Position numbers and translations under genes: made by a program. Of a DNA stretch of 51,143 nt, positions 5,930 through 42,667 are shown piece after piece. Under the pieces are notes generated by a model. That model had not been told where the DNA came from. It did no database searches and was given only the letters and a program-made list of their open reading frames with translations. Position 1 is the stretch's first letter. The number at the start of each line of letters is the position of its first letter. Source of the stretch: a virus; the IMG/VR virus record IMGVR_UViG_3300046660_000285, positions 1 through 51,143 of that record; one strand, written 5' to 3'.

Positions 5930-6582
5930 TCGTCCCCACTCAAATCGCCCGCGACCGAGCCATCGCGCTGATCGCCGTGGTCGGCGTCGGCGCGGCCTTC
6001 GGGTTCGAACGAAAGCACGGACTTCTGCGCATCGAGGGCGTCCTTGAGTTCGTCGCGGAACGGAGCCATCGACTTGCGACGCCAGACCACTTCAAGCGCG
6101 GCCAGATCGGGCGCGGCTGCGATATCGGCGCGCGCCTGGTCGATCGTGAGTTCGGGGGTTTGCGCGATGCCGTTGTTTGCGGCCTGCGCATTGGCCAGCG
6201 GCTTGACGATGAACGGCGTACGTTTGCCCTTCGTCTCGGTCAGCGCCATCACCATCTCACGCTCGATGTTGCTGAGGTGGCTGATGCGAATCCCGCCGAC
6301 CTTCATGCCGCCCCACTTCACGTCGGGATCGCGGTAGATTGTCACCGACCTGCCGACATAGGCGGTCGCATCCGCACCCCAGGCATGGACGAGCACGCGG
6401 TTCATGCTCTTGCACGTTTTCCACGGCTTGTTGTTATCCCCGTCGAAATGGATCGACACCGGCTGTTCGGTGCCGGGCCGGATCGAGACGCCGGTGATGC
6501 GGATCGTGCGTGGGCCGCTGATCAGGTCATCGCTATTTAGCTGATCTGACTTCGGGACGATCACTGCGGTCATGTCGTTCAT
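5926..6582 (-). CDS. Conserved phage protein paired with YqaJ exonuclease
   Basis: 218 aa. Conserved-looking stretches are DLISGPRTIRITGVSIRPGTEQPVSI-type text, then KSMNRVL and YVGRSVTIYRDPDVKWGG. It sits immediately downstream of the YqaJ gene with ATGA overlap, the place where phages usually encode a single-strand annealing or ssDNA-binding partner. That role is inferred from position only; I see no RecT or SSB signature. The C-terminus is acidic (DLSGDE), as in many SSB-like proteins. Confidence 0.72.
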   Translation of the reverse strand: MNDMTAVIVPKSDQLNSDDLISGPRTIRITGVSIRPGTEQPVSIHFDGDNNKPWKTCKSMNRVLVHAWGADATAYVGRSVTIYRDPDVKWGGMKVGGIRISHLSNIEREMVMALTETKGKRTPFIVKPLANAQAANNGIAQTPELTIDQARADIAAAPDLAALEVVWRRKSMAPFRDELKDALDAQKSVLSFEPEGRADADHGDQRDGSVAGDLSGDE

Positions 6583-20379: not shown

Positions 20380-20433
20380 CGCGTCCTCCAGTGTGTTTGG
20401 GCACCTGCATATCGCAACCGGTTCGCCGAACTA

Positions 20434-20466
20434 GCCGTAATCGTGTCCAACCTGGGTGGACATACC
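20434..20466 (+). promoter_or_regulatory. Late-unit motif, copy 1 (before portal)
   Basis: AGCCGTAATC with GCCGTAAT at 20434-20441, second box CATACC at 20461-20466. The portal ATG lies 41 bp after the G of the first box. One of six intergenic copies. Confidence 0.65.
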
Positions 20467-20474
20467 TCCCCGCC

Positions 20475-22469
20475 ATGTCCGGCCGCATCCGACCCGAGAG
20501 TGTCCGCCTGAAGGATGCGAGCAACGTCGTGCCGATCCGCGACGGGCTGATCTCGATGCTCACCGGCATGGGCACCACCACAGACCAGCGCAGCTACAGC
20601 CGCTATTTCGCGCGCTTCATGACCGACTACGAGATCGATCAGGCCTATCGCGGGTCATGGGTCATGCGCAAAGCGATCGACAAGCCCGCGACCGAGATGG
20701 TGCGGGAATGGCGCGACTGGCAGGCCGACAGCGACGTCATCGCCAAGCTCGAGGCCGAGGAAAAGCGGTTGGACCTCCGCAACAAGGTCCGACGCGCCGA
20801 ATGCCTGCGCGGGCTCGGTGGGGCCGGCATGGTTCTCTACGTGGGCGGGTCCGACGATGAACAGATCAATCCGCTCGATCCACAGAAGCTGCGCGCCGGC
20901 GACCTGAAGGCGATCCACGTCTGGCATCGGTCGCGCTTCGCACTGGGCGAGATGATCACCAACTGGGGCGACCCGTGGTTTGGGCATCCGTCTTATTACG
21001 AGATCCAGCTGCAAGGGACCTCGACCAGCAAGCCCATCCGCTTCCACCCCTCCCGCGTCGTCGCGTTCAAAGGTGAGCCGGTTGCCGATATCGTCGGCGT
21101 CGACTGGCGGTCCGCATTCTGGGGTCAGGCCAAGGTTCAGACGATCATGGACGCGATCCAGAACGTCGACACCGCGGATACGGGGTTTGCGGCGCTGATC
21201 AGCCAGGCCAGACTACGGCGCATCTACATCCCCAAGCTGCTCGACCTGATCAACGGTGCTGACGGCGAGGCAAAGTTGGCCAAGCGTTTGCAGGCCTTCG
21301 CGTTGGGCGAAAGCAACAACTCGGTGTCCTGGCTCGATGGCGGTGACGGCGCGACCGGCGCCGAGAGGATCGACGACAAGCAGGTCACGTGGACCGGCAT
21401 GCCCGACATCATGGCGGCGTATCGTACCGCGGCAGCAGCAGCCGCCGACATGCCCGCGACCGTGCTGTGGGGCATCTCGCCGCAGGGCATGAACGCGACC
21501 GGCGATTCCGATATCCAGCTGTGGCACAAGACGATCAAGGGCCGGCAAGACCTCGACCTACGCCCGTGCATGACGCAGATCGACGCGGCACTGGTCCCTT
21601 CGGCGCTCGGCAAGGTCGATGATGCCATCTGGTACGATTGGGCGCCGCTGTCGTCGCAGTCCGAGAAGGACGAGGCGACCACGTTCTTCACGTTTATGCA
21701 GGGCGTGGAGAAGCTGCAGGCGACCAATGCGTTGCCGACGATCGCGTTCGAGAAGGCGCTGCAGAACACGCTTGAGGAGCGGTCGTGGCTTCCCGGATTG
21801 GGCGATGCACTCGCCGAGATCGCGGAAGACGAGCGTTTCCCGTCGCTGAGCGAGCCCGATGTCGACGCGAACGGTAACCCGATCGATCCGAATGCACTGC
21901 AAGCGGAAGGAGGTGATCAGACCACCGGCGCCGAGAAGCCGCCCGTTCGCCGCGTCGCCAACGATGGGGAGGTGGACGACCAGTCGGGCCTCCCTTTCTG
22001 TGACATCTACAACCCGGATCAACCCCGGAACGAACATGGCGAATGGACCGCGACCGGAGCAATCACGCTCCACGTCAGCCGCGCGATGCAATCTCCGAAA
22101 GAGAAATCCACGACCTCCCTTGGAAAGGTGAGTAGCGCAAATGCCGCCGCCGTGCTGGAGAAGACCGGCGTGCATATCGCTGGGTTCGAGCGCGAGATCC
22201 GCAGCGACGATATCCGCCATGTGATGAAGTCGCACGGCGACCCGGCACGGGAAGCGGCGCGCGGCCAAATCGCGATACGCAAAGCCGATTTCGAGCAGAT
22301 TCCGATGATCGTCGAGAATGCCCACTCCATTAAGAAGGAAGGTGATGCTCGCAGCGCCAAGGGGTTGCGGCTCGAATATACCGCCAGCCTCGGCGGCCAC
22401 GAATATAGCTACGTCGAGACGGTCAGCGGCGGCAAAGTCGTCGCGCTGAAGTCGATGAGGAAGAAGTGA
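20475..22469 (+). CDS. Portal protein (DUF1073-like) fused to a C-terminal PBECR-like nuclease domain
   Basis: 664 aa from ATG 20475. Residues about 1-510 fit DUF1073-type portal proteins (IDKPATEMVREW ... DMPATVLWGISPQGMNATGDSD), which form the dodecameric DNA gate of the head. After a linker with DQPRNEHGEWTATG, residues about 564-664 (TGVHIAGFEREIRSDDIRHV then HGDPAREAARGQIAI, ADFEQIPMIVENA, GHEYSYVETV) resemble the phage Barnase-EndoU-ColicinE5/D-RelE-like family usually found at MuF C-termini. That part could act as an RNase/toxin released or injected with DNA. The fusion partner call is moderate. Confidence 0.88.
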   Translation: MSGRIRPESVRLKDASNVVPIRDGLISMLTGMGTTTDQRSYSRYFARFMTDYEIDQAYRGSWVMRKAIDKPATEMVREWRDWQADSDVIAKLEAEEKRLDLRNKVRRAECLRGLGGAGMVLYVGGSDDEQINPLDPQKLRAGDLKAIHVWHRSRFALGEMITNWGDPWFGHPSYYEIQLQGTSTSKPIRFHPSRVVAFKGEPVADIVGVDWRSAFWGQAKVQTIMDAIQNVDTADTGFAALISQARLRRIYIPKLLDLINGADGEAKLAKRLQAFALGESNNSVSWLDGGDGATGAERIDDKQVTWTGMPDIMAAYRTAAAAAADMPATVLWGISPQGMNATGDSDIQLWHKTIKGRQDLDLRPCMTQIDAALVPSALGKVDDAIWYDWAPLSSQSEKDEATTFFTFMQGVEKLQATNALPTIAFEKALQNTLEERSWLPGLGDALAEIAEDERFPSLSEPDVDANGNPIDPNALQAEGGDQTTGAEKPPVRRVANDGEVDDQSGLPFCDIYNPDQPRNEHGEWTATGAITLHVSRAMQSPKEKSTTSLGKVSSANAAAVLEKTGVHIAGFEREIRSDDIRHVMKSHGDPAREAARGQIAIRKADFEQIPMIVENAHSIKKEGDARSAKGLRLEYTASLGGHEYSYVETVSGGKVVALKSMRKK

Positions 22470-23859: not shown

Positions 23860-24594
23860 ATGACCGTTCCGAGCACTGTCAAAGGTGGATATTTCGATGT
23901 GGCGGTCGACGTCACGACCCTTGGCCTGCTCGATGGTGGCGGCAGTCCGATCACCGGCTATGTCATCATTTGCGGGCTGAATACCCGCAACCTGACGCAC
24001 CAGGTCAACACGACCGACGAAGCGGTCCCGAACTGCCAGGATCCCGAGGAAGTGCCGTGGGTGTCGCGCAATGCGAACAGCCAGGAAAAGAACATGTCCG
24101 GCACGGGTCTGCACAACCGCGCGCAGACCAACGTCATCCGCGCTGTTTACGGTCGCACGTTGCCTTATCGCTTCATCGAAGGCGAGCCCGGCAATGACCT
24201 CGTCAGCCAGGGCTATTGGGAAGGCCCGTTCCTGTTCCAGCAGTGGCAGGAAGGCGCGACCGATAAGCAGAACGTGACCAGCCAGTTCACCTGGCAGAGC
24301 GATGGTATGGTCGATTGGGTGTCGACCACGGCGCCGACGCTGGCCACGCTCACCGCGACTCCGCTGACTGGCACCGCGGCGACCCCGTGGTCGGGCGTGG
24401 TGTCCGGCCGCCACGCAGGCTCGGAAATCAGCATCGTTGCGACCGGCGCGACCGCAGTCAGCTACGACGACGCGACCAACACGATCCATGCGACGTGGGC
24501 GACCGCGGGCAGCAAGTCGGTGAAGGTGACCGAGACGTTCGCCGAAGCCACCAACTCGCCGAAGCTGACGACGCTCACCGTCGTTATCTCGTAA
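23860..24594 (+). CDS. Major tail (tube) protein
   Basis: 244 aa with a CGGAGG Shine-Dalgarno. The N-terminal 155 residues form a beta-rich tube-type domain; about 160-244 (APTLATLTATPL ... GSKSVKVTETF) look like an Ig-like decoration domain (Big_2-type). Its place before the frameshifted chaperone and tape measure supports the tail tube role. The subunit polymerises around the tape measure. Confidence 0.82.
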   Translation: MTVPSTVKGGYFDVAVDVTTLGLLDGGGSPITGYVIICGLNTRNLTHQVNTTDEAVPNCQDPEEVPWVSRNANSQEKNMSGTGLHNRAQTNVIRAVYGRTLPYRFIEGEPGNDLVSQGYWEGPFLFQQWQEGATDKQNVTSQFTWQSDGMVDWVSTTAPTLATLTATPLTGTAATPWSGVVSGRHAGSEISIVATGATAVSYDDATNTIHATWATAGSKSVKVTETFAEATNSPKLTTLTVVIS

Positions 24595-24598
24595 CGCC

Positions 24599-25075
24599 GT
24601 GCAGACGTGGGTCGACATCGCTTTCGCTGACGGCGTCTACACGTTCAAGCTTGGCATGGGGCAGATCGCCGAGATCGAGCAGAAATGTGGGTCGGGCATC
24701 GGCGCGATCTATGCGCGGACGATCAAGGGGCGGTACGGCTACAAGAACGGGGAAATCTATCCCGACTTAGCGGAATACAAATTCGCCGAGCTGGTCGAGG
24801 TCGTCCGGCAAGGGCTGATCGGCGGTGGCTCCGGTGAAGTCGACGGCAAGCCCGTCGCCGTGTCGCCGGTGCGCGCCAACGATCTCGTCGAGCGGTACGT
24901 TCTGACCGCGTCGGACCAGCGTATGGCGATGACGCAGGTCTGGTCCCTCGCCTTCGCGATCCTTGCCGCGCTCATCGAGGGGTACACCCCGCCAAAAAAA
25001 GACGAGCCGGCGCCGAGCCGGCCAACCCGCAGGAAACAATCGACTGGGCAGGAGTCCTCACCAACTGCGCAATGA
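24599..25075 (+). CDS. Tail assembly chaperone, short form (gpG-like)
   Basis: 158 aa from GTG 24599. WVDIAFADGVYTFKLGMGQIAEIEQKCGSG is typical of the GTA gp10-like tail chaperones. It ends shortly after an A7 run at 24994-25000, where a -1 shift extends translation into 25000..25254 (long form). Such pairs guide tape-measure and tube assembly. Confidence 0.85.
   Translation: MQTWVDIAFADGVYTFKLGMGQIAEIEQKCGSGIGAIYARTIKGRYGYKNGEIYPDLAEYKFAELVEVVRQGLIGGGSGEVDGKPVAVSPVRANDLVERYVLTASDQRMAMTQVWSLAFAILAALIEGYTPPKKDEPAPSRPTRRKQSTGQESSPTAQ
24994..25000 (+). promoter_or_regulatory. Programmed -1 frameshift site (A AAA AAA)
   Basis: In the chaperone frame the heptamer reads A-AAA-AAA, a perfect X-XXY-YYZ slip site. 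The -1 frame is open from here through the downstream chaperone part to 25254. Confidence 0.85.
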
Positions 25076-25254
25076 TGGGTGTCCAGCCGTCGGAAGCGCG
25101 CAAACTGACGTGGTGGGAATATCAAGGCATGCTCTGGACCTGGAACGATCGCCACAGCACTGAGCGGGAGCCAGTCGAGGCACCTGAGGCCGCATTCGTC
25201 GAGCGCCGGCAGCAGCGTCTGGCCGATGCTGGCATAGCGAAGACTCTGCACTGA
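25000..25254 (+). CDS. Tail assembly chaperone, frameshift extension (gpT-like)
   Basis: Read in -1 frame from the A7 site: KRAGAEPANPQETIDWAGVL then NCAMMGVQPSEARKLTWWEY and GMLWTWNDRH. The DWAGVLTNCA ... LGVxPxExxxLTWxE pattern is the usual second chaperone part. A separate start at ATG 25072 exists but lacks the W-A-G-V-L segment, so the fusion is the better reading. The stop overlaps the tape measure ATG (TGATG). Confidence 0.82.
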   Translation, partial: RRAGAEPANPQETIDWAGVLTNCAMMGVQPSEARKLTWWEYQGMLWTWNDRHSTEREPVEAPEAAFVERRQQRLADAGIAKTLH

Positions 25255-28200
25255 TGGCCGAGGTTGTCGACGCCATCATCGCGGACCTCATCGTCCGGAA
25301 CCTCGACAAGTACGAGGCCGACTTCAATCGCGCGACCGCCGCGCACGACAAATTCGCTCGCTCGACCGATAAGCTCAAGGCACAGACCTTCGACCTGCAA
25401 GCCGAGGGGCAGAAGTACAAGGCCGGCACGAACGCAATTGGCGCGGCAGAGGAGGGCCTGACCCAGCGCGTCACCCGCACCCGCAAGGCGCGCGCGGATA
25501 CCGCCGTTGCCCAATCGAACCGCGAGACTGCCGCTGCAAAGAAGGCCGCCAAGGAGCAGGCCGACGCCGCGATTGCCGAGGCCCAGCGCGAGGAAGCTGC
25601 TGTCCGGCGCATCCGCAACATGGTCGCGCAATCGACTAGCAGCGGCGGCGTCCGCCGTGGCTCCGGCCGCATCGCCAGCACGTCGGTTCCGGGTGAACGC
25701 ACCGGCCAGGGCGCGATCCCGCTATCCGTGCTCAATGGCGGCGATGCGGCCGGAGCAGAAGCCGAAATCAACCACATGCTGGCCGATCGCGCCAAGCTGC
25801 AGGCCGCTCTCACCTTCGCGAGCAAGGAAGACGCCGCGGTCATCCGCGACAAGCTCGCCGAACTGCGCCTGATCAATCAGTTGCAGCGCGCCGGTTTGGG
25901 CGATGCCGAGATTGCGGTCGAGCTGGAAAAGCGCGCGCTGGCGGTGGAGATCGAGCGGGCGGCGGTAGCGGCCGGCAAGAGCAAGGGGTCGCTCGGGAAA
26001 GACGCGGAGCAGTTCGCGCGCGGGTCTGGATTCTACGCGGCAACCGGCGGCACGGCCGCGGTTGCCGGCATCGCAACCGCCGCATCGCTTGCGGCTGTCG
26101 TCGCTGTCACGAAGGAGGTAATCACCAGCGGGCTCGCCTATGCCGAGACGCTGAAGCAGGAGAGCGAGCAGCTGGGTATTTCCGCCCATGCGCTGCAGAT
26201 CTGGCGGGTCGTTGCCGAAGACGCCGGCGTGAAGACCGAGCAGCTGAAGGAGGGGTTCGGGCAACTCGCGTCCAACATCGGCAAGGCCCAAGAAGGGTCT
26301 CAGGAGCAGTCTAAGATCTTCAAGGCGCTGGGGATCGGCCTCGGCAATGCGAAGGATGGCTATAAGTCGCTCAACGATATCCTGCCGGTGTTCATGGACA
26401 AGCTGTCGAAGATTCCCGACCAGGCGCGGCGGTTGGCACTCGAAACCGCGCTTGGTGGCGAGCAATTGCGTAAGCTCGACCCGATCCTGTCGAAGGGTTC
26501 TGGCTCGTTCAACGAGATGGCTGAGGCAATCGACGCCACGGGCACCGCGCTCAGCAATCGCGAGATCCAGCGGGCAGCACAAACCGCGGCGCATCTCCGA
26601 CAGTTGAATGATCAGCTGCAGCGCCAACTTGCCGGATTCGTCGCCACGAATGCGAGCGCGATTGACCAGCTGGCCACGTCGTTCTTCCGGCTGGCGAGCA
26701 GCGCGATATCTGCGCTCGCGGCCCTGCAGCGCTTTGGCGCGCGTCGCGTGCTCCAAAGCGACATGGCTTCCGACGACCAGAAGGCGGCGGCGATCGACTT
26801 GCTAAACTCGACGCCGCAGGGACGGTTCGAAAATTCGCAGAGCATTGCCCGCGGCGCGAAGACCCTGGCCACGGCGGGCCGAACGATGGGGTATGGCGGG
26901 CAGATTTATGTCGACGGTCTTGGCTATGTTGACAACACCAAGGAGGGCCGCGCCAACGCCCTCGCAACGCTGAAACAGCGGTTCCAGGGCGTGAAGGGTG
27001 CTGCGGCGCTCGATGCAGAAAGCAATGATACCGCTCCCGCCGGTGGCGGACCCGACCTGAGCAAGATTTTCGCGCCGAAGGGTCCAAGGGGACCGAAGGA
27101 CAAGACGGACGAGCAAGCGAAGCGCTTCACGGATGAGATGGCGCGCCTGCAGGACGAGCAGTTGCGGGCCGTGGCCGATCAGACGCAGGATGAGCTTGCA
27201 CGTCTGGAGATCAAGGAGCAGCAGCTCAACACCGACACGGCGCGGCAGAAAGCCGACATCGAGCTGCAGGTTAAGCAGAAGCAACTCACACGCGCCCAGG
27301 CGGACGCGCTGGAACGCCAGCTCAACGATACGCACAACGCCCAGCTGACCGCAATCGAGCGCGACAAGGTGCTCGAGGCGATGAGGCGCACATACGATGC
27401 TGCGATCGCCGAGTTGGACGCGCAGGAGGATATCCTGCGCGACAAGGAATCTCTGGCGAAGACCGTCAAAGAGCGCGCCGCCCTGGAAAAGCAGATCCTT
27501 GAGATCGAACGACAGAAGGAAACGCTCGGCGCGAACTACACCATCGACCGCGCTGCGAACGACGACTCTTCCGTGTCGACCAGCGATCTCAACGCAGCCA
27601 ACCGCACCCTGAAAACGCAGGACAAGCGGTTTGCCGGGAGGTCCGCGACGATCGATGCCCAGAACCGCGGCCCATTGGCCGATTACCTGTCGTCGCTGCC
27701 GAACACGATGGGCCAGGTCAACGAAGCCATGGAGCACGCCGCTGCGTCCGGGCTGCAGAGGCTTGACGACGGGCTGACCAGCGCGGTCGCGAAGTTCCTG
27801 CACCTGCACGGGATCGCCGGCGAATTCCTCCAGGACCTGATCAAGATCGGCATCGAGCGCGAACTTCTGATCCCGCTCGCGAACATGCTTTTTCCGCAAC
27901 AGGGTGCATCGGCTGGGCTTGGCGGAGGTGGCGGCGGATTCGGCAGCATCCTGTCCTCGCTCGGTAGTCTGTTCGGCGGCGGCGGCAGTGGAAGCGCCCT
28001 AGCCGGCAACCTTGGCGCCGATTGGGGCGGTGGCGGCTCGGCGTTCAGCCCGAGTTCGGCTGCCAGCCTGTTGCAGTTCCTGCCGGCATTCGCGACCGGT
28101 GGCAGCGGCATCATCGGCGGCAACTACGGTACCGACAGAAACGTCCTCTCGCTGAACGGCCAGCCCTTCGCGCGCGTGAATCGTGGCGAGCCATTCGCGA

Positions 28201-28433
28201 TCGGACCGAACATTGGGGCGGCGAATGGGCGGGTGAACAGTCAGCCGTCGCAGGTTCTCGTCGTCCAACCGATTCATGCCGACTTCACCGGCGCGCGCAC
28301 CGATGAGCAGACCATGCGGCAGTTCATGCAGTACGCCGATGCGCGGTCACGGCAGGCTTATGAGGCGGCGGTCAGCACTGCGGCGGGGCAAGCGCCCGGC
28401 GTCATCGCACAGGCTCAGACGTTGAAGGGGTGA
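25254..28433 (+). CDS. Tail tape measure protein
   Basis: 1059 aa, the longest gene. Long alpha-helical, Ala/Gln/Lys-rich regions (residues 30-130, 620-760), a hydrophobic segment near 262-292 (TAAVAGIATAASLAAVVAV), and a Gly-rich C-terminal region. Its length should set tail length, giving a long-tailed siphovirus. Placed directly behind the frameshifted chaperone, as usual. Confidence 0.92.
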   Translation: MAEVVDAIIADLIVRNLDKYEADFNRATAAHDKFARSTDKLKAQTFDLQAEGQKYKAGTNAIGAAEEGLTQRVTRTRKARADTAVAQSNRETAAAKKAAKEQADAAIAEAQREEAAVRRIRNMVAQSTSSGGVRRGSGRIASTSVPGERTGQGAIPLSVLNGGDAAGAEAEINHMLADRAKLQAALTFASKEDAAVIRDKLAELRLINQLQRAGLGDAEIAVELEKRALAVEIERAAVAAGKSKGSLGKDAEQFARGSGFYAATGGTAAVAGIATAASLAAVVAVTKEVITSGLAYAETLKQESEQLGISAHALQIWRVVAEDAGVKTEQLKEGFGQLASNIGKAQEGSQEQSKIFKALGIGLGNAKDGYKSLNDILPVFMDKLSKIPDQARRLALETALGGEQLRKLDPILSKGSGSFNEMAEAIDATGTALSNREIQRAAQTAAHLRQLNDQLQRQLAGFVATNASAIDQLATSFFRLASSAISALAALQRFGARRVLQSDMASDDQKAAAIDLLNSTPQGRFENSQSIARGAKTLATAGRTMGYGGQIYVDGLGYVDNTKEGRANALATLKQRFQGVKGAAALDAESNDTAPAGGGPDLSKIFAPKGPRGPKDKTDEQAKRFTDEMARLQDEQLRAVADQTQDELARLEIKEQQLNTDTARQKADIELQVKQKQLTRAQADALERQLNDTHNAQLTAIERDKVLEAMRRTYDAAIAELDAQEDILRDKESLAKTVKERAALEKQILEIERQKETLGANYTIDRAANDDSSVSTSDLNAANRTLKTQDKRFAGRSATIDAQNRGPLADYLSSLPNTMGQVNEAMEHAAASGLQRLDDGLTSAVAKFLHLHGIAGEFLQDLIKIGIERELLIPLANMLFPQQGASAGLGGGGGGFGSILSSLGSLFGGGGSGSALAGNLGADWGGGGSAFSPSSAASLLQFLPAFATGGSGIIGGNYGTDRNVLSLNGQPFARVNRGEPFAIGPNIGAANGRVNSQPSQVLVVQPIHADFTGARTDEQTMRQFMQYADARSRQAYEAAVSTAAGQAPGVIAQAQTLKG

Positions 28434-28507
28434 GCGTGCCGTACGGCAATCGTTTGATGTTTCAGGCCGCGGACGCAAGATCGGACTGTACGACAGTTGA
28501 CCGATAG
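28430..28507 (+). pseudogene. Truncated start of a gene interrupted by the leftward cassette
   Basis: 25 codons from GTG 28430, overlapping the tape-measure TGA (GTGA): MSVPYGNRLMFQAADARSDC and a stop at 28505. A coupled start of this sort is normally followed by a full tail gene, but here the reading frame meets the 3' end of the leftward cassette. A perfect 12-bp palindrome TGCCGTACGGCA (28437-28448) sits at the junction. Reading it as a truncated gene is an inference. Confidence 0.45.
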
Positions 28508-28929
28508 TAGAGGTCCCGTGCAGACTTGGAAGTCATCGGCTTTATTATTTCGCCATGATACGGATTTGCGGTGGCCGAAGCGGTGTTCAAGAGCGGTTCC
28601 GCAGGCTTCGGCGTCCATGCAACTCCACCAGCGCACCTTCTGGCATCATCCGCGGTCACTGCCAGCATAGCGAAAGTGTTTGGCATGGCGCGGTACCGGT
28701 AGGTGGTGGGCAAACCCTGATTCAGCAAAAGCTGTTCGAGGTCCACGGACAGTCCAGGCTCCGAAGGCTTCATTTTGAACGCCTGGTCAGAAATCTTACG
28801 GCCATTGATTTCGCAAGGAACAATCTGCACCGGGCTCCTGCAATGGCGCAGCAGACGCTCTTTGGCTGTAATTGCCAAGTCGTCGGTTCGCGACAGCCCA
28901 AAGTAGTCCTGAATGATCAGGCAGACCAT
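28462..28929 (-). CDS. Cassette gene 3: uncharacterised protein
   Basis: 155 aa. After MVCLIIQDYFGLSRTDDLAI comes the stretch RSPVQIVPCEINGRKISDQAF followed by LSVDLEQLL. I recognise a G-R-x-x-S-x-A-F ... S-V-D pattern from uncharacterised proteins encoded near TIGR04255 genes. Start ATG 28929 overlaps the previous TAA (TAATG), so it is translated with the two genes upstream. The direction is opposite to all flanking late genes. No catalytic motif can be named. Confidence 0.75.
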   Translation of the reverse strand: MVCLIIQDYFGLSRTDDLAITAKERLLRHCRSPVQIVPCEINGRKISDQAFKMKPSEPGLSVDLEQLLLNQGLPTTYRYRAMPNTFAMLAVTADDARRCAGGVAWTPKPAEPLLNTASATANPYHGEIIKPMTSKSARDLYYRSTVVQSDLASAA

Positions 28930-29423
28930 TACCGGAAGTCTGTCCTCGCAATGCTGCGAAACAATTCGACCGCCTGTAAGCCCGTCGCTTCCACCTCGTC
29001 ACTGCTTCCCGCCTGCCGGACCCAGCACGAGACAGCTCCGCCTTCTTCCACGAGAAGACCAATCGAAAGCGCCTTAAGATGCCATTCCGCCTGCACAGAA
29101 CCATCGGCACCAGGGACAAGTGCGCCGACCTTACCTCCCTCGGGTAGCGCTAGCTTCAGATACTGCAGGATCTGATCAAGAGTTGACGGCTTGATAGGGT
29201 CAGCGCCGTACCCATCCCAATTCGGCGTTAATGCGCGGATCGCTGCAGCATGTGCGTCAACCCACGACTGCGCCGCGCTCGCCTTGCGCCCTTCCGGTCC
29301 GGTGCCACCGAGAAAGTTCGATAGACTTCCGATATTCGCGGCCTGTGCACTGATGCCGGTCGTAGAGAAGACGAACGCCGTCGCTGCTGTGGCAGCTTTA
29401 TATGCAAGGGATTGCTGCATCAT
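28929..29423 (-). CDS. Cassette gene 2: NWDGYGA-type protein with hydrophobic N-terminus
   Basis: 164 aa. The N-terminus (AYKAATAATAFVFSTTGISA) looks like a signal or membrane segment. The body carries LTPNWDGYGADPIKPSTLDQ, then GALVPGADGSVQAEWH and SIGLLVEEGGAVSCW, a motif arrangement seen in small uncharacterised proteins of sporadic distribution. Coupled to gene 1 by ATGA (29420-29423) and to gene 3 by TAATG. Function unknown. Confidence 0.75.
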   Translation of the reverse strand: MMQQSLAYKAATAATAFVFSTTGISAQAANIGSLSNFLGGTGPEGRKASAAQSWVDAHAAAIRALTPNWDGYGADPIKPSTLDQILQYLKLALPEGGKVGALVPGADGSVQAEWHLKALSIGLLVEEGGAVSCWVRQAGSSDEVEATGLQAVELFRSIARTDFR

Positions 29424-30235
29424 CCGTCCTCGAATTCGGCGAGTATCTCGTCGGTCAAAAGCGACTTGAAGCGCTCGCTTATGTGGTCATGTGCCTTGAG
29501 AGCAAAAGAGCGAAGGGTTTCCCACGCCACGGTGCCAGTTACGGCGTTGAAAGCCAATTTCAACACCGGCCGCGGTTCTGGGTGGTTCGGTTCGATCGTA
29601 GCCCCCAAAGCCATTGTGATCGCGACTACGGATCGATCCTCTGAATTCTCAGGGTTCATTGGCTCGAGCCAATTGACGTTCCAGCCGATTGCCGGGCGCG
29701 GCTCCAACGACCTCCAATGCCTGAATACAGTTTCGACCCGCCTCTGCTCGCCCCCGTCTGGTTTCATAATGATCATATTATCGTAGAAAACTTGCGCTGA
29801 GGTCAGCGAAGGCACTTCCTGATCATGCTCCAGCTGAAAGTCAGAAATCGTTCGAAAGTATTCGGAGGCGCCGTCGAGCGCCTTTTCAAAGCCCGGATAC
29901 GAAGTCGCTCGCGCGCGCCGTCGCCAGTTCCAACCGAGGAATCGCTCCTGCGCCTGCAACAATCGCTCGCCACTCTCTTCGATGAACCACCAGCGCGGTG
30001 GCGCGCCGAGATCGCCGGGAAGCATAATCGGCGGTGCGCCGACAAATTCTGAATTGTCCATGCCCACCACAGGCATTTGGCGCTCAACGACGGGAAATTC
30101 GTCTGCAAAGCGCCGGTGCAGTTCGCTAATGCGGAACGGATCGACGAGCTGGCCCGTCGAGAACACAGAGATGCCCATCTCATTGATCGGCGCGGCCGGC
30201 AAAAGCACGCGCCGAGCATCGTCAGTCCCACCCAT
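29420..30235 (-). CDS. Cassette gene 1: TIGR04255 family protein
   Basis: 271 aa from ATG 30235 with AGGAA eight bases upstream. Family signature: LLPAAPINEMGISVF near the start, then WWFIEESGERLLQAQERFLG and NWRRRARATSYPGFEKAL, and AQVFYDNMIIM. TIGR04255 proteins are sporadically distributed, often on mobile DNA, without an assigned role. It leads a three-gene operon inserted antisense between tape measure and capsid genes. Sequence here looks less GC-rich than its surroundings, consistent with a separate origin. Confidence 0.85.
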   Translation of the reverse strand: MGGTDDARRVLLPAAPINEMGISVFSTGQLVDPFRISELHRRFADEFPVVERQMPVVGMDNSEFVGAPPIMLPGDLGAPPRWWFIEESGERLLQAQERFLGWNWRRRARATSYPGFEKALDGASEYFRTISDFQLEHDQEVPSLTSAQVFYDNMIIMKPDGGEQRRVETVFRHWRSLEPRPAIGWNVNWLEPMNPENSEDRSVVAITMALGATIEPNHPEPRPVLKLAFNAVTGTVAWETLRSFALKAHDHISERFKSLLTDEILAEFEDG

Positions 30236-30256
30236 TGGAGAATTCCTATCGCTAGC

Positions 30257-30271
30257 GAACGGAAATGCAAC
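30257..30271. promoter_or_regulatory. Imperfect LexA-like box before the three-gene cassette
   Basis: GAAC-GGAAATG-CAAC, one mismatch from GAAC-N7-GAAC, 22 bp upstream of the cassette ATG. Alone it is weak evidence; it may be chance. Confidence 0.25.
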
Positions 30272-30333
30272 TACCCCTCGAGAAGGATTACGTCCAATCC
30301 GGAGCAATCTTCATCAAAGAGATGCTTCCACCC

Positions 30334-30365
30334 GCCGTAATCGGTCCGCACGCGCACATATAACC
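30334..30365 (+). promoter_or_regulatory. Late-unit motif, copy 3 (before capsid protease)
   Basis: GCCGTAATC at 30334-30342, second box TAACC at 30361-30365. The next ATG is 41 bp from the first G, the same distance as at the portal. Confidence 0.62.
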
Positions 30366-30374
30366 GGTGCGGCC

Positions 30375-31526
30375 ATGCTCATGGCCGATCGCCTCACGCT
30401 CGATACGCCCCGTCGCACTGCCGACGGATATATGGCCGTTCGTGCGCGCGCGGCTCGGACGGGCGTATATCAATATTCCGGCTCCGAGATCGACCCCGAT
30501 AACTCGCATGGCCTTCGCGACCAAGCATCGGTCAATGTGCTGCGCGACGAAAACACGGTGTTCGACACCAAGGCGGCGCACAGTTTCATCGGCAAGCCGA
30601 TCACCGACGACCATCCGCACGAAGCGGTGACAGCCAGCAATTGGCGCGACCATGCGCGCGGCGTGATTATGGGCGCGATGCGCGACGGCGACCACCTGTC
30701 GTTTGATCTGCTGATCACCGATGCCGCCATGATTGCCAAGGTCGAGGCCGGGAAGGTCGAGATTTCCAACGGCTACCAGAGCGCGCTCCAATTCGGCGAC
30801 TTCAAGGCGCCCGACGGCACAGTCTGTCAGGCCCGCCAAGAGAACATCGCCGGCAACCATTCCGCCATCGTTGACCGCGGTCGTGCCGGCCCGACGTGCG
30901 CAATCCCGATCGCAGCGCGCTGCGATTCCGCCCCCCAATCCTTTCTCGATTCCCTGAAGACGGAGAAGCCCGTGATTACCATGCTCATCGACGGGCTGAC
31001 CGTCGACGTGTCCAACGCCGACACGGCGAAGGCGACGATCACCACCATCCTGGCCGCGCGCGATGGCGCGCTGTCCAAGGTTTCCGGCCTCGAAACGCAG
31101 GTCGCCACCCTGACGACCGACAAGGCGACGCTCGAAGCGGAAAAGGTCACCCTGACCCAGCAGCTCGCCGACGCGTCGAGCCCCGCCAAGCTGCGCGATG
31201 CCGCCAAAGCCTATGCGCTGATCGCGGACAAGGCGAAGGCGCTCGGCGTCACCGTCACCGACGCGATGGACCAGTCCGCGATCATCAAGGCGGTGGTCGA
31301 CGGCAAGATCGACGGGAGCCTACGCGAAGGCTGGACCGACGCGCAGTACGCCGCGTCGTTCGCCTCGCTGACCAAGGACGTGAAGGCCACCGATGTCGCG
31401 CCGGGGATCGCCGGGTCGCCGGTCGTGCTCGGCGATGCGCAGACCGAATACGCCGCCGCCCGCGACAAGCGGAAGACATCCCTTTCCGATGCGTGGAAGG
31501 CCCCCTCCACCGCGACCGCCCAGTAA
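30375..31526 (+). CDS. Capsid maturation protease/scaffold-like protein (DUF2213)
   Basis: 383 aa from ATG 30375. The N-terminal 190 residues fit DUF2213 (GYMAVRARAARTGVYQYSG, FIGKPITDDHPHEAV, KVEISNGYQS, and GNHSAIVDRGRAG). The rest is a helical, scaffold-like region with coiled coil (LETQVATLTTDKATLEAEK). Probably a protease fused to scaffold, acting during prohead assembly with the cement and major capsid genes that follow. Confidence 0.85.
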   Translation: MLMADRLTLDTPRRTADGYMAVRARAARTGVYQYSGSEIDPDNSHGLRDQASVNVLRDENTVFDTKAAHSFIGKPITDDHPHEAVTASNWRDHARGVIMGAMRDGDHLSFDLLITDAAMIAKVEAGKVEISNGYQSALQFGDFKAPDGTVCQARQENIAGNHSAIVDRGRAGPTCAIPIAARCDSAPQSFLDSLKTEKPVITMLIDGLTVDVSNADTAKATITTILAARDGALSKVSGLETQVATLTTDKATLEAEKVTLTQQLADASSPAKLRDAAKAYALIADKAKALGVTVTDAMDQSAIIKAVVDGKIDGSLREGWTDAQYAASFASLTKDVKATDVAPGIAGSPVVLGDAQTEYAAARDKRKTSLSDAWKAPSTATAQ

Positions 31527-36243: not shown

Positions 36244-36635
36244 CCGATCTCGGCGCCTATCTCCAATCGGCGATCTCGCGGACCTGGGCATGGGGTCGTT
36301 GGGATTGCTGCCGGTTCGCCGCGGAATGGTGCATCCGCCGCGGTCGCGGCGATCCCATGGACTTCCTGCGACCGCTCTACACGTCGGAATTTGCTGCCCT
36401 GCGCACCATCCGAGAGGGCGGCGGGCTCGTTGCGCTGTGGTCGCGCGGGATGGCTGATATCGACGCACCTGAGGTAGAAAACGCCGCGCTCGGCGATGTC
36501 GGCATCGTCAACGAGTTTACTGATCACGGCGACGAGCAGGTCTGCGCGATCTACACGGGCAAGCGCTGGGCTATGCTCGGCATTCATGGACTGGTCTGCG
36601 TGCCCGCCGAGCCGATCAAGGTCTGGCGGCCATGA
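36240..36635 (+). CDS. DUF6950-like tail protein (NlpC/P60-like fold)
   Basis: 131 aa. TWAWGRWDCCRFAAEW matches the W-x-x-G-x-x-DC pattern with a catalytic-type Cys; a GDVGIVNEF region and GLVCVPAEPIKVWRP follow. May act as a tail-tip peptidoglycan hydrolase during entry, or be structural. Coupled to the J-like gene. Confidence 0.78.
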   Translation: MTDLGAYLQSAISRTWAWGRWDCCRFAAEWCIRRGRGDPMDFLRPLYTSEFAALRTIREGGGLVALWSRGMADIDAPEVENAALGDVGIVNEFTDHGDEQVCAIYTGKRWAMLGIHGLVCVPAEPIKVWRP

Positions 36636-39600
36636 GCAAGGTCGTGGGCAGCATTCTAAAAATATGGTTCGGCATCAACGCGCTGGTAGTCGGCGCGGTC
36701 ACCGGCAATTTCGCACTGGCGGCAACTGGGCTCGGCCTGCTGGTGGGCGGCATCACCGGGCTCACCCAGCATGCCCCGAAGCCGGACCTGACCGAAACCG
36801 CGCTCAAATCACCGACCCCTGCCCGGGTGTCCGGCTACGGACTGGGCCGCCATTACATGGCCTATGCCCTCTACGTCACCAACAAGGACGGCGTCGCGGT
36901 CGACGTCGGGGCCTTCCATGACGGTCGGGTCAACGCGATCACCGGCCATTACCTGGCCGACATCAAGATCGTCGTGCTTCCCGACGGTCGCGTTCAGGCC
37001 GGCGAGGCCGGGCAGTTCGGTGAAGACAGCGATATCGTCAAAGTTTTCACCCGGCTCGGCGAGGATGCCGAAACCGCCTATAGCCAGGTCATCGCGAAGG
37101 TTCCGGACCAGTGGACCAGCGATCACCGCGGCGACGGCGTCTGCACTGGGGCGGTGCTGACGAACCCGACCAAAGCCAAATATTTCCAGATGATATTTCC
37201 GAGCGGCGGGCCGAACAACATGCCGCTGTCGCTGGTACTGGAGCGTCAGCTTTGCTTCGATTGGCGCGACCCCAGCCAGTCCGTCACCGATCGCTCGACG
37301 TGGAAATACACCGAGAACGCCATCCTTCATCTCGCGCATTACGAGCTGGTCCGAGACAACAAGGATTGGGAGACGCATTTTGTGCCGACGTTGGCACATT
37401 GGACTGCGGCAGCTGATGTCTGCGATGAAGCGGTGCCGCTCAAGGGCGTGCAGACCATCCTCGCTGAGAAAGCCGACGATGGTAGCGATCATATCACGGT
37501 CACCACGGCGAACGGCCTGACGACCGGCATGACGATCGTCATCTCGGCAACCGGTGACACCTCGCTGACCGAGACGCGCACGGTGACGTCGATTACCGGG
37601 CTGGTGCTTGGTCTGAGTAGTCCGCTGTCGCACGATCACCCTGTCGGCTCGCAAGTCGCATGGTCATCGTCGGAGGGGTCGCCAGCTACGGAGCCGCGCT
37701 ATCGGTCCTGTCTCGCCCACAAGCACACCGACGAACATAAGTCGGTCGTCGGCGGGTTACTGGCCTGTTGCGACGGCTGGCTGGCACCGCGCTCGGATGG
37801 CGCACTGGTCGTCTATGCCGGGCACTATTACGAGCCGACGGTCACGATCGGGCCGGATCTCATCGTCGGCTATTCGTTGCAGGATGGCGTCGACGAGGAA
37901 TCGGCGATCAACTCGATCTCGGTCACCTACGTCTCGGCCAATCACGATTTCAACGTCGTCGACACCGATCCATGGGTGGACGAGGACGACATCGCCGAGC
38001 GCGGCAAGGTGCTGGCGACGCAAATTGCGAACCAGGTGCCGACGCATTCCCAAGCCCGTCGACTGGCCAAGCCTGCAATGGCACGCACCAATGCGGCCAA
38101 ACGCGGCACGATCACGACCACCTCGGGTGGCAAGGTCGCACTCGGCCAACGCTATATCCACCTGACGATCGAGGAAGCTGGAACGACGTTCCTCGACGCC
38201 GCGGTCGAGATCGTGGCGCCGGTCAAGCGCAACCCCATCACGGGCGGAATCACCTTCAACTGGGTGCTGGCGGACCCGAACATGTACGCATGGAACCCGG
38301 CGACAGAGGAAGGCGACCCGGCGCCGGTGGGCAACCGGCTCGCGCCGGCGCCACTCGACGCGCCGATCATCACGTCGGCTGCGGCGGATTTCTCGGCGGT
38401 TTCCGACGACGGTACCGGCGTGCGCGTCACGATCGACGTCACGGCGCCTGACCGCGACGACCTGACCTGGTACGCGCGCTGGCGGGTAGTCGGCGACACC
38501 AGCTGGAACGAGGCGCAATATTCCGACGTCGATCCCGGCACGTCGGTGACACTGCAGACCGGATTCGTGCCGGCGCATCAGACCGTCGAGGTTGAGGCCG
38601 CCTATCAGGTCGGTGACGGGCGGATTTCTCCGTTCTCGTCGCCGGCAACAGAGGTCGGCACCGCGACCGACGCGACGCCACCCGACGCGGCATCCGCAAT
38701 CACACTGATAAGCTGGTCGGACGCGCTCAACCTGACCACGGCCCGCATTGCTCGAGCATCCTCCTATCGCTGGCGGTTCTACGATCCTGGCGATTTGACG
38801 ACGCCCATCCGCACGATCGTCACATCAACGCCGACTGTTGCCTACACCTCTCTACAGGCGACGTCGGACGGCATTCGCCGAGACTATGTCGCGACGGTCG
38901 CTGGCGTGAACGGCGCTGGTGCAGGAACGGCGGCGTCGACCACCACTCTGACACTAGCAGCCCCAGCCGCTATCACCTCCTTCGCTGCGGCTGACGGCAC
39001 GACCGAATCCGCGGTGACGTTCGATCTCTCCACCGAGCCGGGCGTAGTCGGATACGTCATCGCCACCTCGACCGTCTCAGGCTTCGACCCGATGACACAG
39101 GGATCACTATTCTACTTCAAGGGCACGCCGGCCTATCTGCAGAACCTTGCCGCTGGCACATTCTATGCCATCGGGGCGGCCTACGACGCATGGACTACGC
39201 GGCCGGATCTTTTGAATTTCTCGTCGCAGGACAGCTTCACGATCTCGACCGGTGGCGGTGGTGTCGGCGGCGGCGGTGGCGGTGGCGGTGGTGGCTATTG
39301 CGTCGCCGTCGAGGTCCCGATCCTACTCGCAAATGAAGCGCACGACGGCGCCGGCGCGGAAATCCGTGCCGAGCTGCTGACGATCGGTCATTGGGTCTGG
39401 ACGCGGCCCGAACTTGACGACGGCTCGCTTGGCGACTGGGGCGCGTATCAGGTCGCGGCGGTGACGTTCGTAGACGAGCCGGTGCTGGCCCTCGACATCG
39501 GGACCGGTGTGCTGCGTGCAACGGCGGCCCATCGGATCTGGATCGGCGACAGCTGGGTGCGCATGGATGCGCTCGGATCGCCTGATGGTAGCGCCATGGT

Positions 39601-39685
39601 CGCCAAGATCACCGTCGACACTGCCCACACCTATGTCAGCGGCGGCGTGATCAGCCACAACCTCAAGCAGGATTCCCCAGAGTGA
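36632..39685 (+). CDS. J-like tail tip protein with C-terminal Hint domain
   Basis: 1017 aa. N-terminal hydrophobic segment, a central J-like/phage tail-III region to about 560, then FN3-like repeats (about 575-870). After a Gly-rich linker comes a Hint-type domain: Cys890 (GGYCVAVEVPILL), block-B-like TAAHRIWIGDSWV and final ISHN (His1009-Asn1010). The residue after Asn1010 is Leu, not Cys/Ser/Thr, so splicing is unlikely but C-terminal or N-terminal self-cleavage is possible. Likely determines host recognition at the tail tip. Confidence 0.88.
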   Translation: MSKVVGSILKIWFGINALVVGAVTGNFALAATGLGLLVGGITGLTQHAPKPDLTETALKSPTPARVSGYGLGRHYMAYALYVTNKDGVAVDVGAFHDGRVNAITGHYLADIKIVVLPDGRVQAGEAGQFGEDSDIVKVFTRLGEDAETAYSQVIAKVPDQWTSDHRGDGVCTGAVLTNPTKAKYFQMIFPSGGPNNMPLSLVLERQLCFDWRDPSQSVTDRSTWKYTENAILHLAHYELVRDNKDWETHFVPTLAHWTAAADVCDEAVPLKGVQTILAEKADDGSDHITVTTANGLTTGMTIVISATGDTSLTETRTVTSITGLVLGLSSPLSHDHPVGSQVAWSSSEGSPATEPRYRSCLAHKHTDEHKSVVGGLLACCDGWLAPRSDGALVVYAGHYYEPTVTIGPDLIVGYSLQDGVDEESAINSISVTYVSANHDFNVVDTDPWVDEDDIAERGKVLATQIANQVPTHSQARRLAKPAMARTNAAKRGTITTTSGGKVALGQRYIHLTIEEAGTTFLDAAVEIVAPVKRNPITGGITFNWVLADPNMYAWNPATEEGDPAPVGNRLAPAPLDAPIITSAAADFSAVSDDGTGVRVTIDVTAPDRDDLTWYARWRVVGDTSWNEAQYSDVDPGTSVTLQTGFVPAHQTVEVEAAYQVGDGRISPFSSPATEVGTATDATPPDAASAITLISWSDALNLTTARIARASSYRWRFYDPGDLTTPIRTIVTSTPTVAYTSLQATSDGIRRDYVATVAGVNGAGAGTAASTTTLTLAAPAAITSFAAADGTTESAVTFDLSTEPGVVGYVIATSTVSGFDPMTQGSLFYFKGTPAYLQNLAAGTFYAIGAAYDAWTTRPDLLNFSSQDSFTISTGGGGVGGGGGGGGGGYCVAVEVPILLANEAHDGAGAEIRAELLTIGHWVWTRPELDDGSLGDWGAYQVAAVTFVDEPVLALDIGTGVLRATAAHRIWIGDSWVRMDALGSPDGSAMVAKITVDTAHTYVSGGVISHNLKQDSPE

Positions 39686-39748: not shown

Positions 39749-42667
39749 ATGGGCACGATAGCGGATAAATTCGGCGAAGCGTTCCGCGACTTTGAGACTG
39801 ACGGCGTCCCGGCATCTGGTGCTCACAAGCCGGTAAAGCATGAAATTCAGGCGCTGGGGACGGCGATCGATACGGCGCTCGCGGGCGCGGTTTCAGGGAT
39901 CGCTCAATACGCGACGGCTGCAGCCTTGCCGACCTCGCCGGCGCCAGCGGAAGGCAAGCAGGCGCGCGTCTATGACGACCCGACGCCCGCAAACAACACC
40001 TATTGGATCTACCAAAGCGGAGCCTGGGCGATCGACGTCGACTTCGCGGCGAATCTCAAGGGCCCAACAGGCGCAACTGGTGCAACGGGCGCAACCGGTC
40101 CGACTGGAGCCACCGGCGCAACCGGTGCGACAGGGCCGGCCGGAGCCGACGGGCATGCCACTTCCACCATCGATGGCTATGGCTCCCCGCCGTCGTCCAT
40201 CGGGGTCACTGGGGACTATTACCGCGACCTCAAAGCGGGCGTTCGCTACGGCCCGAAGACGGCCGCGGGATGGCCGGCGACCGGGGAACCGTACACTCTT
40301 GCGTCGTCCTCGATTCCGTCCACGCGCGTGCGACGCGACCTGCGGATTGCCGGCGCGGTCTTCCCGACCGACCATTGGACGTTCACGCGGGGCAGCACCT
40401 CGACCGATCTGCTCGAAACCGACCCCTATACCTATGCATATTCGTCGTTCGCCAACGACGTACCAGTGATACGCGTCGGCAAGGGCCTTCTCTCCTACAT
40501 GCGGGCGCAGCAGTATCTGTCCAACCCGACCGCGCCGGCCACCCACACGACCGCGGGCAATGTTGCGGTCGGCACGGCCATCCTGCTTGTTTGGGGGCCA
40601 GTTGGCGCGAGTGTTACCGTAGCCGCGGGAACGGCCGTTGGATCGGGCTTCGCGACCGCCAATTGCAACGGTACGGGGGCCGCGAAGATCGTCCTTACGA
40701 TCACGACGGCAGGCACGATCGCGGTTACCGTCTCGGGGTCGGTTACCTATTTCAACCTGCAGCAAAACCCATCGTCGCCGACCGCAACCGAGGCTGTACC
40801 GTTTATCGCGACGACTGGTATCCGCGAGCCGGACAAGGCTGTCGCAACGTCCACCATGATCGCGCTGCTCAACACGACAGCCGGCTACATGCTGATGGGT
40901 GTGTCGAATGTCACCGGGCGAAGCTACGCACGCTCGCCATGCTTTTGGGGGCTCAATAACGTCACCGCGGGATACGCCGCCAGTGACACGCAATTCACTG
41001 TCTATGACCCGGCAAATCAGACGTCGCTCACGACGATCGGCTCGGACACCTTCAGTGCCGGCGCGACCATCGGTCGGACTTGGGACGCTACCTCCACCAT
41101 GGATTTCGGCGGGGGCAATCGCGTCGAGTCGTCGCACCCATATCGCTACAACAACGGCGCTGCGGTCACGGCCGCCACACTCGGCCACCCGTCGACCACG
41201 AACACCTCGGGCGCGAACCAGCTCAACGGCATCGTTGGCTGGTACGAGATCGACACGGGCGGCCGTATCACTGCGGAGGCGCTCTACGAAAAGTACACCT
41301 CCATGCCCTCGCCGGCGCTGGACACGCTGCTCAAGAATTATGTCGGCTCGACCCAGTTTCCGCACGTCCTCAGTCAGGAGCGTTTGCTGCAGGCTGGCGT
41401 CATCGATCACGTCCCGTACGGCGTAGCCGGTCCATCGCACGAGGGCGGTGTCGCGACCGGCACCAACATTCGCGCGGTTGCGTGGATGACGCAGATGGTC
41501 GCGGACTTGGAGAGCCAGGGCTATGCGGTAACCGACGATGCAATCGTAAGCCAAAACAGCTCGGTCTATTCTGCCGGAACCAATGCGTATGATCCACGCG
41601 ACACCTATACCGGCACTGCACCAACGCTCGGCGGCGTGACGTTCGGCGGAGAGTACATCGCTGTCCCGACGGGGACGGTCATCACCTTCACGCCATCGTC
41701 GCGGCAGACCTCGCGCTTTCATCTCGCGATCTATACTAACGCGAGCTACGGCAATGCCGAAGTGTCGATCGATGGCGGGACGACGCCCATCGCCTGTAAC
41801 GAGAACGCAGCGACCAGCATCCCCAGCACCGTCTCGACCTTCACGGCGTCGATTGCTGATGACCTGATGACTGTTACCGGTAGCGTAACGGGCACCGCGC
41901 TCGCGCCGGGCGACATCATCAGCGGTGGCACCGCGGTGAGCGGCACGCGTATCACTGCTCAAGTTTCGGGGACGACGGGCGGCGCTGGTGTCTACCGCGT
42001 CCATATCGGCAAGCAGACGGTCGCAAGTGCCACGATGACGGTCATCATCCGGTGCCGGACGTTCGATGCCGCGCTGGGCATGAAGGCTTGGTCCACCAAG
42101 GCAACGGGATCCGCGATCCATATCGCCTATCGCTACGCTCGGAACCCTGCGATCGCACAGCGCGTGTTCTTCAACGGCGGACGCAATGGCTTCAACGTCA
42201 CCAATTTGGCGCAGGACAGCTCACCGGAGTCGAGCTATCTGATGCTGATCCGCGCGCTCGGTTTCGCCGCGGTGATTGGCGGCGTCGACCAAACGAACGA
42301 CATGGCGGGGTCCGGCACCGACTTCGCGTCCATCTACGATCCGAAGAGTTATGCCATTATTCAGGCGATCCGCGCCACCGCCGATCCGATCGGCCTCACC
42401 GACCCGCCCACTTCGCCGGCGGTCTACACGCTGGCCGTCCAGGACAAGGTCGTGAACCAGGCGCGCGCGGTCTACGGGAAATACGGCGTCCCCTATTACG
42501 ATCTGTACGGCTGGAAAACGGTCCAGGGTGTGACGTCGGGATACACCGCCATTTTCCCGAGCGGCCTTTATGGCAGCGACACGATCCACCTCGCCAAGGT
42601 CGGGCACAAGCGCCTCAAGGCCAATCAGATTGGTTCCCTTCTCAAGCGCCTATGGGCTGCTGCTTAA
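39749..42667 (+). CDS. Collagen-like tail fibre with SGNH-hydrolase-like C-terminus
   Basis: 972 aa. N-terminal attachment region, then a short collagen-like run of G-x-T/A triplets (about 105-134; GPTGATGATG), a large beta-rich body, and a C-terminal hydrolase-like part. Near the end DTIHLAKVGHKRLK fits the catalytic D-x-x-H block of SGNH/GDSL esterases; the nucleophile block is not clear. Likely receptor-binding fibre, possibly deacetylating host polysaccharide. Confidence 0.82.
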   Translation: MGTIADKFGEAFRDFETDGVPASGAHKPVKHEIQALGTAIDTALAGAVSGIAQYATAAALPTSPAPAEGKQARVYDDPTPANNTYWIYQSGAWAIDVDFAANLKGPTGATGATGATGPTGATGATGATGPAGADGHATSTIDGYGSPPSSIGVTGDYYRDLKAGVRYGPKTAAGWPATGEPYTLASSSIPSTRVRRDLRIAGAVFPTDHWTFTRGSTSTDLLETDPYTYAYSSFANDVPVIRVGKGLLSYMRAQQYLSNPTAPATHTTAGNVAVGTAILLVWGPVGASVTVAAGTAVGSGFATANCNGTGAAKIVLTITTAGTIAVTVSGSVTYFNLQQNPSSPTATEAVPFIATTGIREPDKAVATSTMIALLNTTAGYMLMGVSNVTGRSYARSPCFWGLNNVTAGYAASDTQFTVYDPANQTSLTTIGSDTFSAGATIGRTWDATSTMDFGGGNRVESSHPYRYNNGAAVTAATLGHPSTTNTSGANQLNGIVGWYEIDTGGRITAEALYEKYTSMPSPALDTLLKNYVGSTQFPHVLSQERLLQAGVIDHVPYGVAGPSHEGGVATGTNIRAVAWMTQMVADLESQGYAVTDDAIVSQNSSVYSAGTNAYDPRDTYTGTAPTLGGVTFGGEYIAVPTGTVITFTPSSRQTSRFHLAIYTNASYGNAEVSIDGGTTPIACNENAATSIPSTVSTFTASIADDLMTVTGSVTGTALAPGDIISGGTAVSGTRITAQVSGTTGGAGVYRVHIGKQTVASATMTVIIRCRTFDAALGMKAWSTKATGSAIHIAYRYARNPAIAQRVFFNGGRNGFNVTNLAQDSSPESSYLMLIRALGFAAVIGGVDQTNDMAGSGTDFASIYDPKSYAIIQAIRATADPIGLTDPPTSPAVYTLAVQDKVVNQARAVYGKYGVPYYDLYGWKTVQGVTSGYTAIFPSGLYGSDTIHLAKVGHKRLKANQIGSLLKRLWAAA

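Follow-up and report, generated by a model that had tools for sequence, protein, structure and literature searches.

The locus studied here raises the question of what three small overlapping genes, headed by a member of the TIGR04255 family, do on the opposite strand amid the virion genes of a phage. The DNA analyzed, referred to as the window, is an IMG/VR virus record of 51,143 bp. Its (-) strand encodes a TIGR04255 family protein (gene 1, 30235-29420, 271 aa from the ATG; a TTG at 30307 is a possible alternative start that would give 295 aa), a protein with an NWDG...QAEW domain behind a variable N-terminal part (gene 2, 29423-28929, 164 aa) and a protein related by intermediates to PDC-M32B (gene 3, 28929-28462, 155 aa). 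Genes 1 and 2 overlap by 4 nt in an ATGA junction (-4), and genes 2 and 3 by 1 nt in a TAATG junction (-1). The trio is flanked by the tape-measure ORF (25254-28433) and by a DUF2213-like head gene that starts at 30375, both on the (+) strand, and runs antisense to them. An earlier note on this DNA had described three leftward ORFs of these lengths with the same junctions and had placed them inside the virion genes, and both descriptions hold. Tape measure, DUF2213-like, portal, integrase and the other names given to phage genes were assigned by inspection and not by family search.

The stop codons of the tape-measure ORF and gene 3 converge with a gap of 28 bp (28434-28461), which leaves no room for a separate terminator. 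Upstream of gene 1 lies a divergent intergenic region of 139 bp (30236-30374), in which the operon promoter must sit; a search of this region for a sigma-70 promoter gave nothing above chance. The near-LexA box to which the earlier note had drawn attention is found at 30257-30271 with one mismatch, but it is at the level of chance, with 40 matches to GTTC-N7-GTTC (at most one mismatch) in the window versus 37.7 expected. There is no E. coli-type LexA box (CTGT-N8-ACAG) near the trio. Gene 1 is also preceded by an imperfect 22-bp palindrome, which was rejected as a chance occurrence because 15% of random phage windows equal it.

As the earlier note had suspected, the trio is less GC-rich than its flanks. 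Its G+C content is 0.576 versus 0.630 for the window, a value as low as which is reached by only 0.5% of windows of the same size, and the GC3 of its genes is 0.60-0.67 versus 0.77-0.85 for the other phage genes. The phage itself is probably temperate since a large ORF (3040-4422, (-) strand) reads as an integrase by inspection. Two related viral contigs (L065 and L066) encode DUF2213-like proteins that are 67% and 62% identical to that of the window, and both have the gene order portal, MuF-like, DUF2213-like, decoration and capsid. The MuF-like and DUF2213-like genes are separated by about 245 bp in L066 and by one small gene (HNH-like by eye) in L065, whereas in the window this interval holds the trio and, in addition, the tail-tube, chaperone and tape-measure genes. 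The trio thus sits at a junction of variable gene content. Its location between virion genes would be explained if the three products were late structural or ejected virion proteins that happen to be encoded on the opposite strand. We give this explanation almost no weight: these two contigs, the nearest relatives that share the head genes, lack the trio, its G+C content is lower, other phages carry it elsewhere, and it is also carried by bacteria and plasmids. The tail-tube, chaperone and tape-measure genes (23860-28433) give the window an unusual tail-before-capsid order between the MuF-like and the DUF2213-like/capsid genes; the corresponding head genes are almost adjacent in L065 and L066.

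The trio is a real unit, and it recurs in phages, a plasmid and bacteria. Viral contigs were searched with each protein and with each small alignment, and both searches gave the same two contigs with complete trios, L003 (276, 169 and 159 aa) and L004 (265, 179 and 158 aa). In both, the order is that of the window, every junction overlaps and the identity to the window is 32-47%, which makes it certain that the trio is coding. An integrase gene abuts the trio in L004, while the trio of L003 shares its region with a SIR2-like gene and a CI-like repressor. As these contexts differ from each other and from that of the window, three phages carry the trio at three different places. Closer relatives of the trio were found only in IMG/VR contigs, and the annotated phage and plasmid collections gave no direct tblastn match to either gene 1 or gene 3. 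The SIR2-like gene of L003 (2684-3679, (+) strand; PDB SIR2 proteins, 6e-5) lies about 1.3 kb from the trio, with the CI-like repressor on the other side, and the region is possibly a small defense island in a prophage control region.

A first scan of genome contigs with gene 3 revealed no relative; when genomes were scanned with the gene 2 alignment, a bacterial trio (L012) turned up in a MAG titled Deltaproteobacteria, with a TIGR04255 score of 128 bits. On a Mycobacterium paragordonae plasmid (L043) the trio adjoins mobF, and its gene 3, which is outside the gene-3 model, matches that model at 4e-9. Overall, this gene order is shared by the trios of two other phages, of the Mycobacterium plasmid and of at least 12 bacterial loci, and in ten out of ten tabulated loci the order is fixed and the junctions overlap. 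The genes are therefore co-inherited as one three-gene unit, as had been proposed. The earlier note had named a failure of genes 2 and 3 to co-occur with TIGR04255 elsewhere as the result that would count against its proposal, and this test came out in its favor.

We also analyzed a sample of 395 genomes from one phylum, around the L012 MAG, and the following figures hold for this sample. TIGR04255 is present in 32 genomes, the gene-3 profile identifies 21 places in 17 genomes and the gene-2 profile 19 places in 16 genomes. The gene-2 domain is located directly upstream at 19 of the 21 gene-3 places; of the two others, one is cut by a contig end (L053) and one is a fragment (L056). At 12 of the 21, TIGR04255 in turn precedes gene 2. 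Eighteen of the 19 gene-2 places read as true members, comprising TIGR04255 trios, pairs with other first genes and PDC-M32A fusions. For the most divergent group (L040/L050, L052, L054, L061), matches to gene 2 are weak (7.5e-5 to 0.0036), and the assignment is partly positional. L086 was rejected as a gene-2 member, being an unrelated long ORF.

The earlier assignment of gene 1 to TIGR04255 is confirmed by a match of 39.8 bits (4.4e-10; curated cut-off 30 bits) that covers the full model (positions 2-252 of 252). Homologues of gene 1 are found in L003, L004, L012 and L043, and a profile comparison links gene 1 to strong TIGR04255 members at 8.7e-16. To our knowledge no role has ever been assigned to TIGR04255, and a library of 5.39 million papers contains no mention of it. 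The TIGR04255 profile gave no match to PDB sequences at E-values up to 10. The AF2 model of gene 1 is of moderate confidence (pLDDT 69.9, pTM 0.74) and consists of two sheet-plus-helix halves. Its top Foldseek matches are McsB/guanidino kinases, START and TATA-binding proteins with TM-scores of about 0.3 or below, and no PDB structure matches below 1e-3; a weak resemblance to TATA-binding-protein-like folds was found in the viral library (E-value 3.5e-4, TM about 0.27). A SecB-like fold, suggested by the order of strands and helices in the model, was dropped because Foldseek does not support it, with SecB absent among the 50 best matches of this moderate-confidence model.

Gene 2 has no Pfam, NCBIfam or PHROG family. 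Its domain, the detection of which was assessed on held-out loci with shuffled decoys, contains two invariant residues (W69, G71) and four nearly invariant ones (D70, G108, E113, W114), and the N-terminal part in front of it differs from locus to locus. The hydrophobic N-terminus ascribed to gene 2 in the earlier note proved weak: the best 19-residue Kyte-Doolittle mean is 1.04, with values of 0.0 to 1.5 in homologues, and membrane anchoring was rejected since hydropathy is both weak and inconsistent. This bears directly on the possibility that the lysogen expresses the trio for a membrane-type superinfection exclusion. That the trio is placed as a moron in a phage that also has an integrase gene, and that the N-terminus is weakly hydrophobic, would fit such a role, but there is no consistent membrane segment and homologues also occur outside phages, in chromosomes and plasmids, and we consider this role, which the earlier note had raised, very unlikely. 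A lone 125-aa NWDG-domain protein related to gene 2 is encoded in the viral contig L009 (IMGVR_UViG_3300050821_002270, 5956-6333). It matches the C-terminal domain of PDC-M32A at 4.8e-6, has no gene-3 relative nearby and is possibly an orphan antitoxin that serves counter-defense.

Gene 3 likewise has no Pfam, NCBIfam or PHROG family and no match among PDB sequences, no known toxin fold or family was recognized, and its AF2 model is of low confidence (pLDDT 39). Across 18 divergent relatives, most of which are 14-25% identical to the reference row, S61 and H125 (window numbering) are invariant and R28 is at least 90% conserved. These are almost the sole conserved residues, a pattern as expected of an active site, and gene 3 probably encodes an enzyme.

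Genes 2 and 3 are both related to PDC-M32, a PADLOC candidate. Gene 2 matches PDC-M32A at an E-value of 1.9e-5, although over profile positions 259-329 of 375 only, corresponding to the C-terminal domain. Gene 3 of the window has no direct match to PDC-M32B at E-values up to 1, and the relation runs through intermediates. The gene-3 profile finds L058, L059 and L085, of which L058 and L059 match PDC-M32B. The L058 pair matches both PDC-M32A (1e-147) and PDC-M32B (8e-54), gene 3 of the intermediate L059 matches PDC-M32B at 5.7e-7, and hhalign links gene 3 and PDC-M32B at 9.3e-5 with a probability of 59%. Through these intermediates the gene-2 domain can be equated with the C-terminal part of PDC-M32A, and gene 3 probably belongs with PDC-M32B; the two genes are adjacent in both systems and their order is identical. 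The differences are that gene 2 lacks the N-terminal two thirds of PDC-M32A (about 375 positions at full length) and that a separate TIGR04255 gene precedes the pair in the window. TIGR04255 takes the position that the N-terminal domain has in PDC-M32A. Judged from these comparisons, the core formed by genes 2 and 3 is a divergent relative of PDC-M32 and not a member by PADLOC's own models. The earlier suggestion of an undescribed system has to be qualified accordingly, the core not being wholly new. PDC-M32 has been named as a PADLOC match in a Sinorhizobium prophage (PMC12429752). It is itself only a candidate, and our literature search found no published test of it.

Two-way exchange of modules points to the function of the trio. 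Three-gene operons of this layout, headed by TIGR04255, also occur at other loci, where an unrelated small gene comes second and the third gene varies. The third gene encodes a PIN toxin in L015 (1e-11) and L032 (5.6e-7), PemK/MazF in L018 (2e-13), a HEPN protein in L024 (1.5e-6) and L013 (4e-3), a Zeta toxin on the Vibrio plasmid CP063527 (3e-12) and DUF7689 in L017 (1.4e-40), along with a weak HicA match (0.07) in L038. Several TIGR04255 genes in the genome sample have no recognizable toxin partner. The gene 2-gene 3 pair, for its part, is also found behind other first genes. DUF6941 heads the pair in phage contig L002 (3.5e-4, below Pfam's cut-off), and further first-gene families are found in L055/L057/L083, in L059/L064/L082, in L060 and in L081. 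In L058, L085 and L089, a single protein combines the first part with the gene-2 domain. The alternative first genes have no profile match to TIGR04255 or to one another (best E-value 0.05, with small alignments), compared to 8.7e-16 between two TIGR04255 subgroups.

Some of these loci are worth describing separately. In L002 (4433-5652) DUF6941 takes the place of TIGR04255 and may be another exchangeable first component. DUF7689 (L017, 593-1033, (-) strand) recurs in third position in TIGR04255 operons, with similar genes in L020 and L033, and is a candidate for an unrecognized toxin family; operons of this type have a conserved second gene with the motif MGP..IPLIL.EL....HWFWAL. On the Thermus brockianus plasmid pTB1, which also carries cas6, a VapC toxin gene is located just upstream of a TIGR04255 gene (L069, 2096-3717).

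Toxin-antitoxin-like modules are often used by bacteria and prophages to block competing phages. We favor, with somewhat better than an even chance of being right, the reading that the trio was acquired horizontally as a cargo operon (moron) by a probably temperate phage and forms a phage-defensive, tripartite toxin-antitoxin-like module with gene 1 as its trigger. A moron-borne three-part system, as the earlier note had envisaged, fits a phage with an integrase gene, and the mobile contexts of the related trios (integrase in L004, CI-like repressor and SIR2-like gene in L003, mobF in L043) are supportive. The defense part of the earlier proposal is plausible given the PDC-M32A domain of gene 2, the tie of gene 3 to the PDC-M32A partner and the TIGR04255 operons that end in toxins; superinfection exclusion is not supported. 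By operon position and analogy, we propose gene 3 as the effector or toxin, gene 2 as the antitoxin and gene 1 as an exchangeable third component, either a sensor or an antitoxin stabilizer. The conserved NWDG/QAEW domain of gene 2 would restrain gene 3, presumably an enzyme, while the variable N-terminal part of gene 2 would serve as the docking region for gene 1, which in turn would stabilize or license the antitoxin. A competing phage that interferes with gene 1, or pulls it away from gene 2, would cause the antitoxin to fail, and the freed gene 3 would stop growth before the invader matures (abortive infection).

The closest analogy is provided by the toxin-antitoxin-chaperone (TAC) systems, in which the third component is a SecB-like chaperone. 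In CmdTAC the antitoxin is shielded by the chaperone; once a phage capsid protein draws the chaperone away, degradation of the antitoxin sets the toxin free (PMC11618068). Dependence on a chaperone can be transferred from one toxin-antitoxin pair to another by grafting (PMC5105189). Like M. tuberculosis TAC and CmdTAC, the operons described here have three genes and one type of third component that serves several unrelated toxin-antitoxin pairs (PMC5105189, PMC11618068), their proposed antitoxins bear variable extra segments, and release on a phage trigger would be a natural mechanism. The TIGR04255 protein (about 250-270 aa) has, however, no detected sequence or fold similarity to SecB, and gene 2 varies in its N-terminal part, in contrast to the C-terminal ChAD segments of TAC antitoxins; TIGR04255 could fill the chaperone part with a different fold. 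Among the TIGR04255 operons themselves (PIN, PemK/MazF, HEPN, Zeta, DUF7689), the first-gene family and the layout are shared with the trio, but genes 2 and 3 belong to unrelated families in each class. The hyperpromiscuous Panacea antitoxins (NetFlax network) also show one domain paired with many unrelated toxins (PMC8832971, PMC10440598); there the promiscuous part is an antitoxin domain, while in the present case a separate gene has that role and a different toxin comes with a different antitoxin. Type II toxin-antitoxin systems have small, adjacent and co-transcribed genes, and the layout of the trio, with overlapping genes in all ten loci compared, would fit such a system; a known toxin family is found in related TIGR04255 operons, while gene 3 has no family match.

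Toxin-antitoxin modules are also classic stabilization devices, and the same tripartite biochemistry could serve addiction, i.e., retention of the prophage or plasmid, instead of defense. The occurrence of the trio or of TIGR04255 operons on plasmids, beside mobF or an integrase, speaks for such a purpose. We nevertheless regard it as distinctly the less probable purpose, though one to be taken seriously, because addiction does not need an exchangeable third component, the third component of CmdTAC senses phage (PMC11618068) and the L003 copy is near a SIR2-like gene. A three-part signaling or regulatory complex of undefined output, in which the toxin-like position of gene 3 is coincidental, would be in line with the missing toxin fold of gene 3 and with the pairing of TIGR04255 with DUF7689, which has no stated function. 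This we hold to be improbable, given that four established toxin classes fill the same slot in other TIGR04255 operons and that genes 2 and 3 have a defense candidate among their relatives.

A broader claim can be made only tentatively, at a little below an even chance: TIGR04255 may represent a new, non-SecB class of shared third components, acting as a plug-in infection sensor or antitoxin stabilizer that serves five or more unrelated effectors, in the present case a new family of enzyme toxins (gene 3, PDC-M32B-like). The pairing of TIGR04255 with unrelated toxins, and of the gene 2-gene 3 core with apparently unrelated first genes, suggests that sensors and killers are built from interchangeable parts. 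If true, this would suggest a mechanism for PDC-M32 and explain its split form, and one small operon suffices to make the role of TIGR04255 testable.

Three further phage ORFs are of note for their termini or repeats. The last ~150 codons of a portal-like ORF (20391-22469, (+) strand) resemble, by eye, a PBECR (phage Barnase/RelE-type) nuclease domain; a PDB sequence search with this C-terminal extension gave no match. A tail-tip-like ORF (36632-39685) has a C-terminus (39224-39682, (+) strand) composed of a glycine run followed by a Hint/intein-like segment (by eye) that ends in HN; PDB matches to this C-terminus are dominated by the low-complexity glycine linker. The tail-fiber-like ORF (39749-42667, (+) strand) contains a collagen-like GPTGATGATG repeat near its N-terminus.
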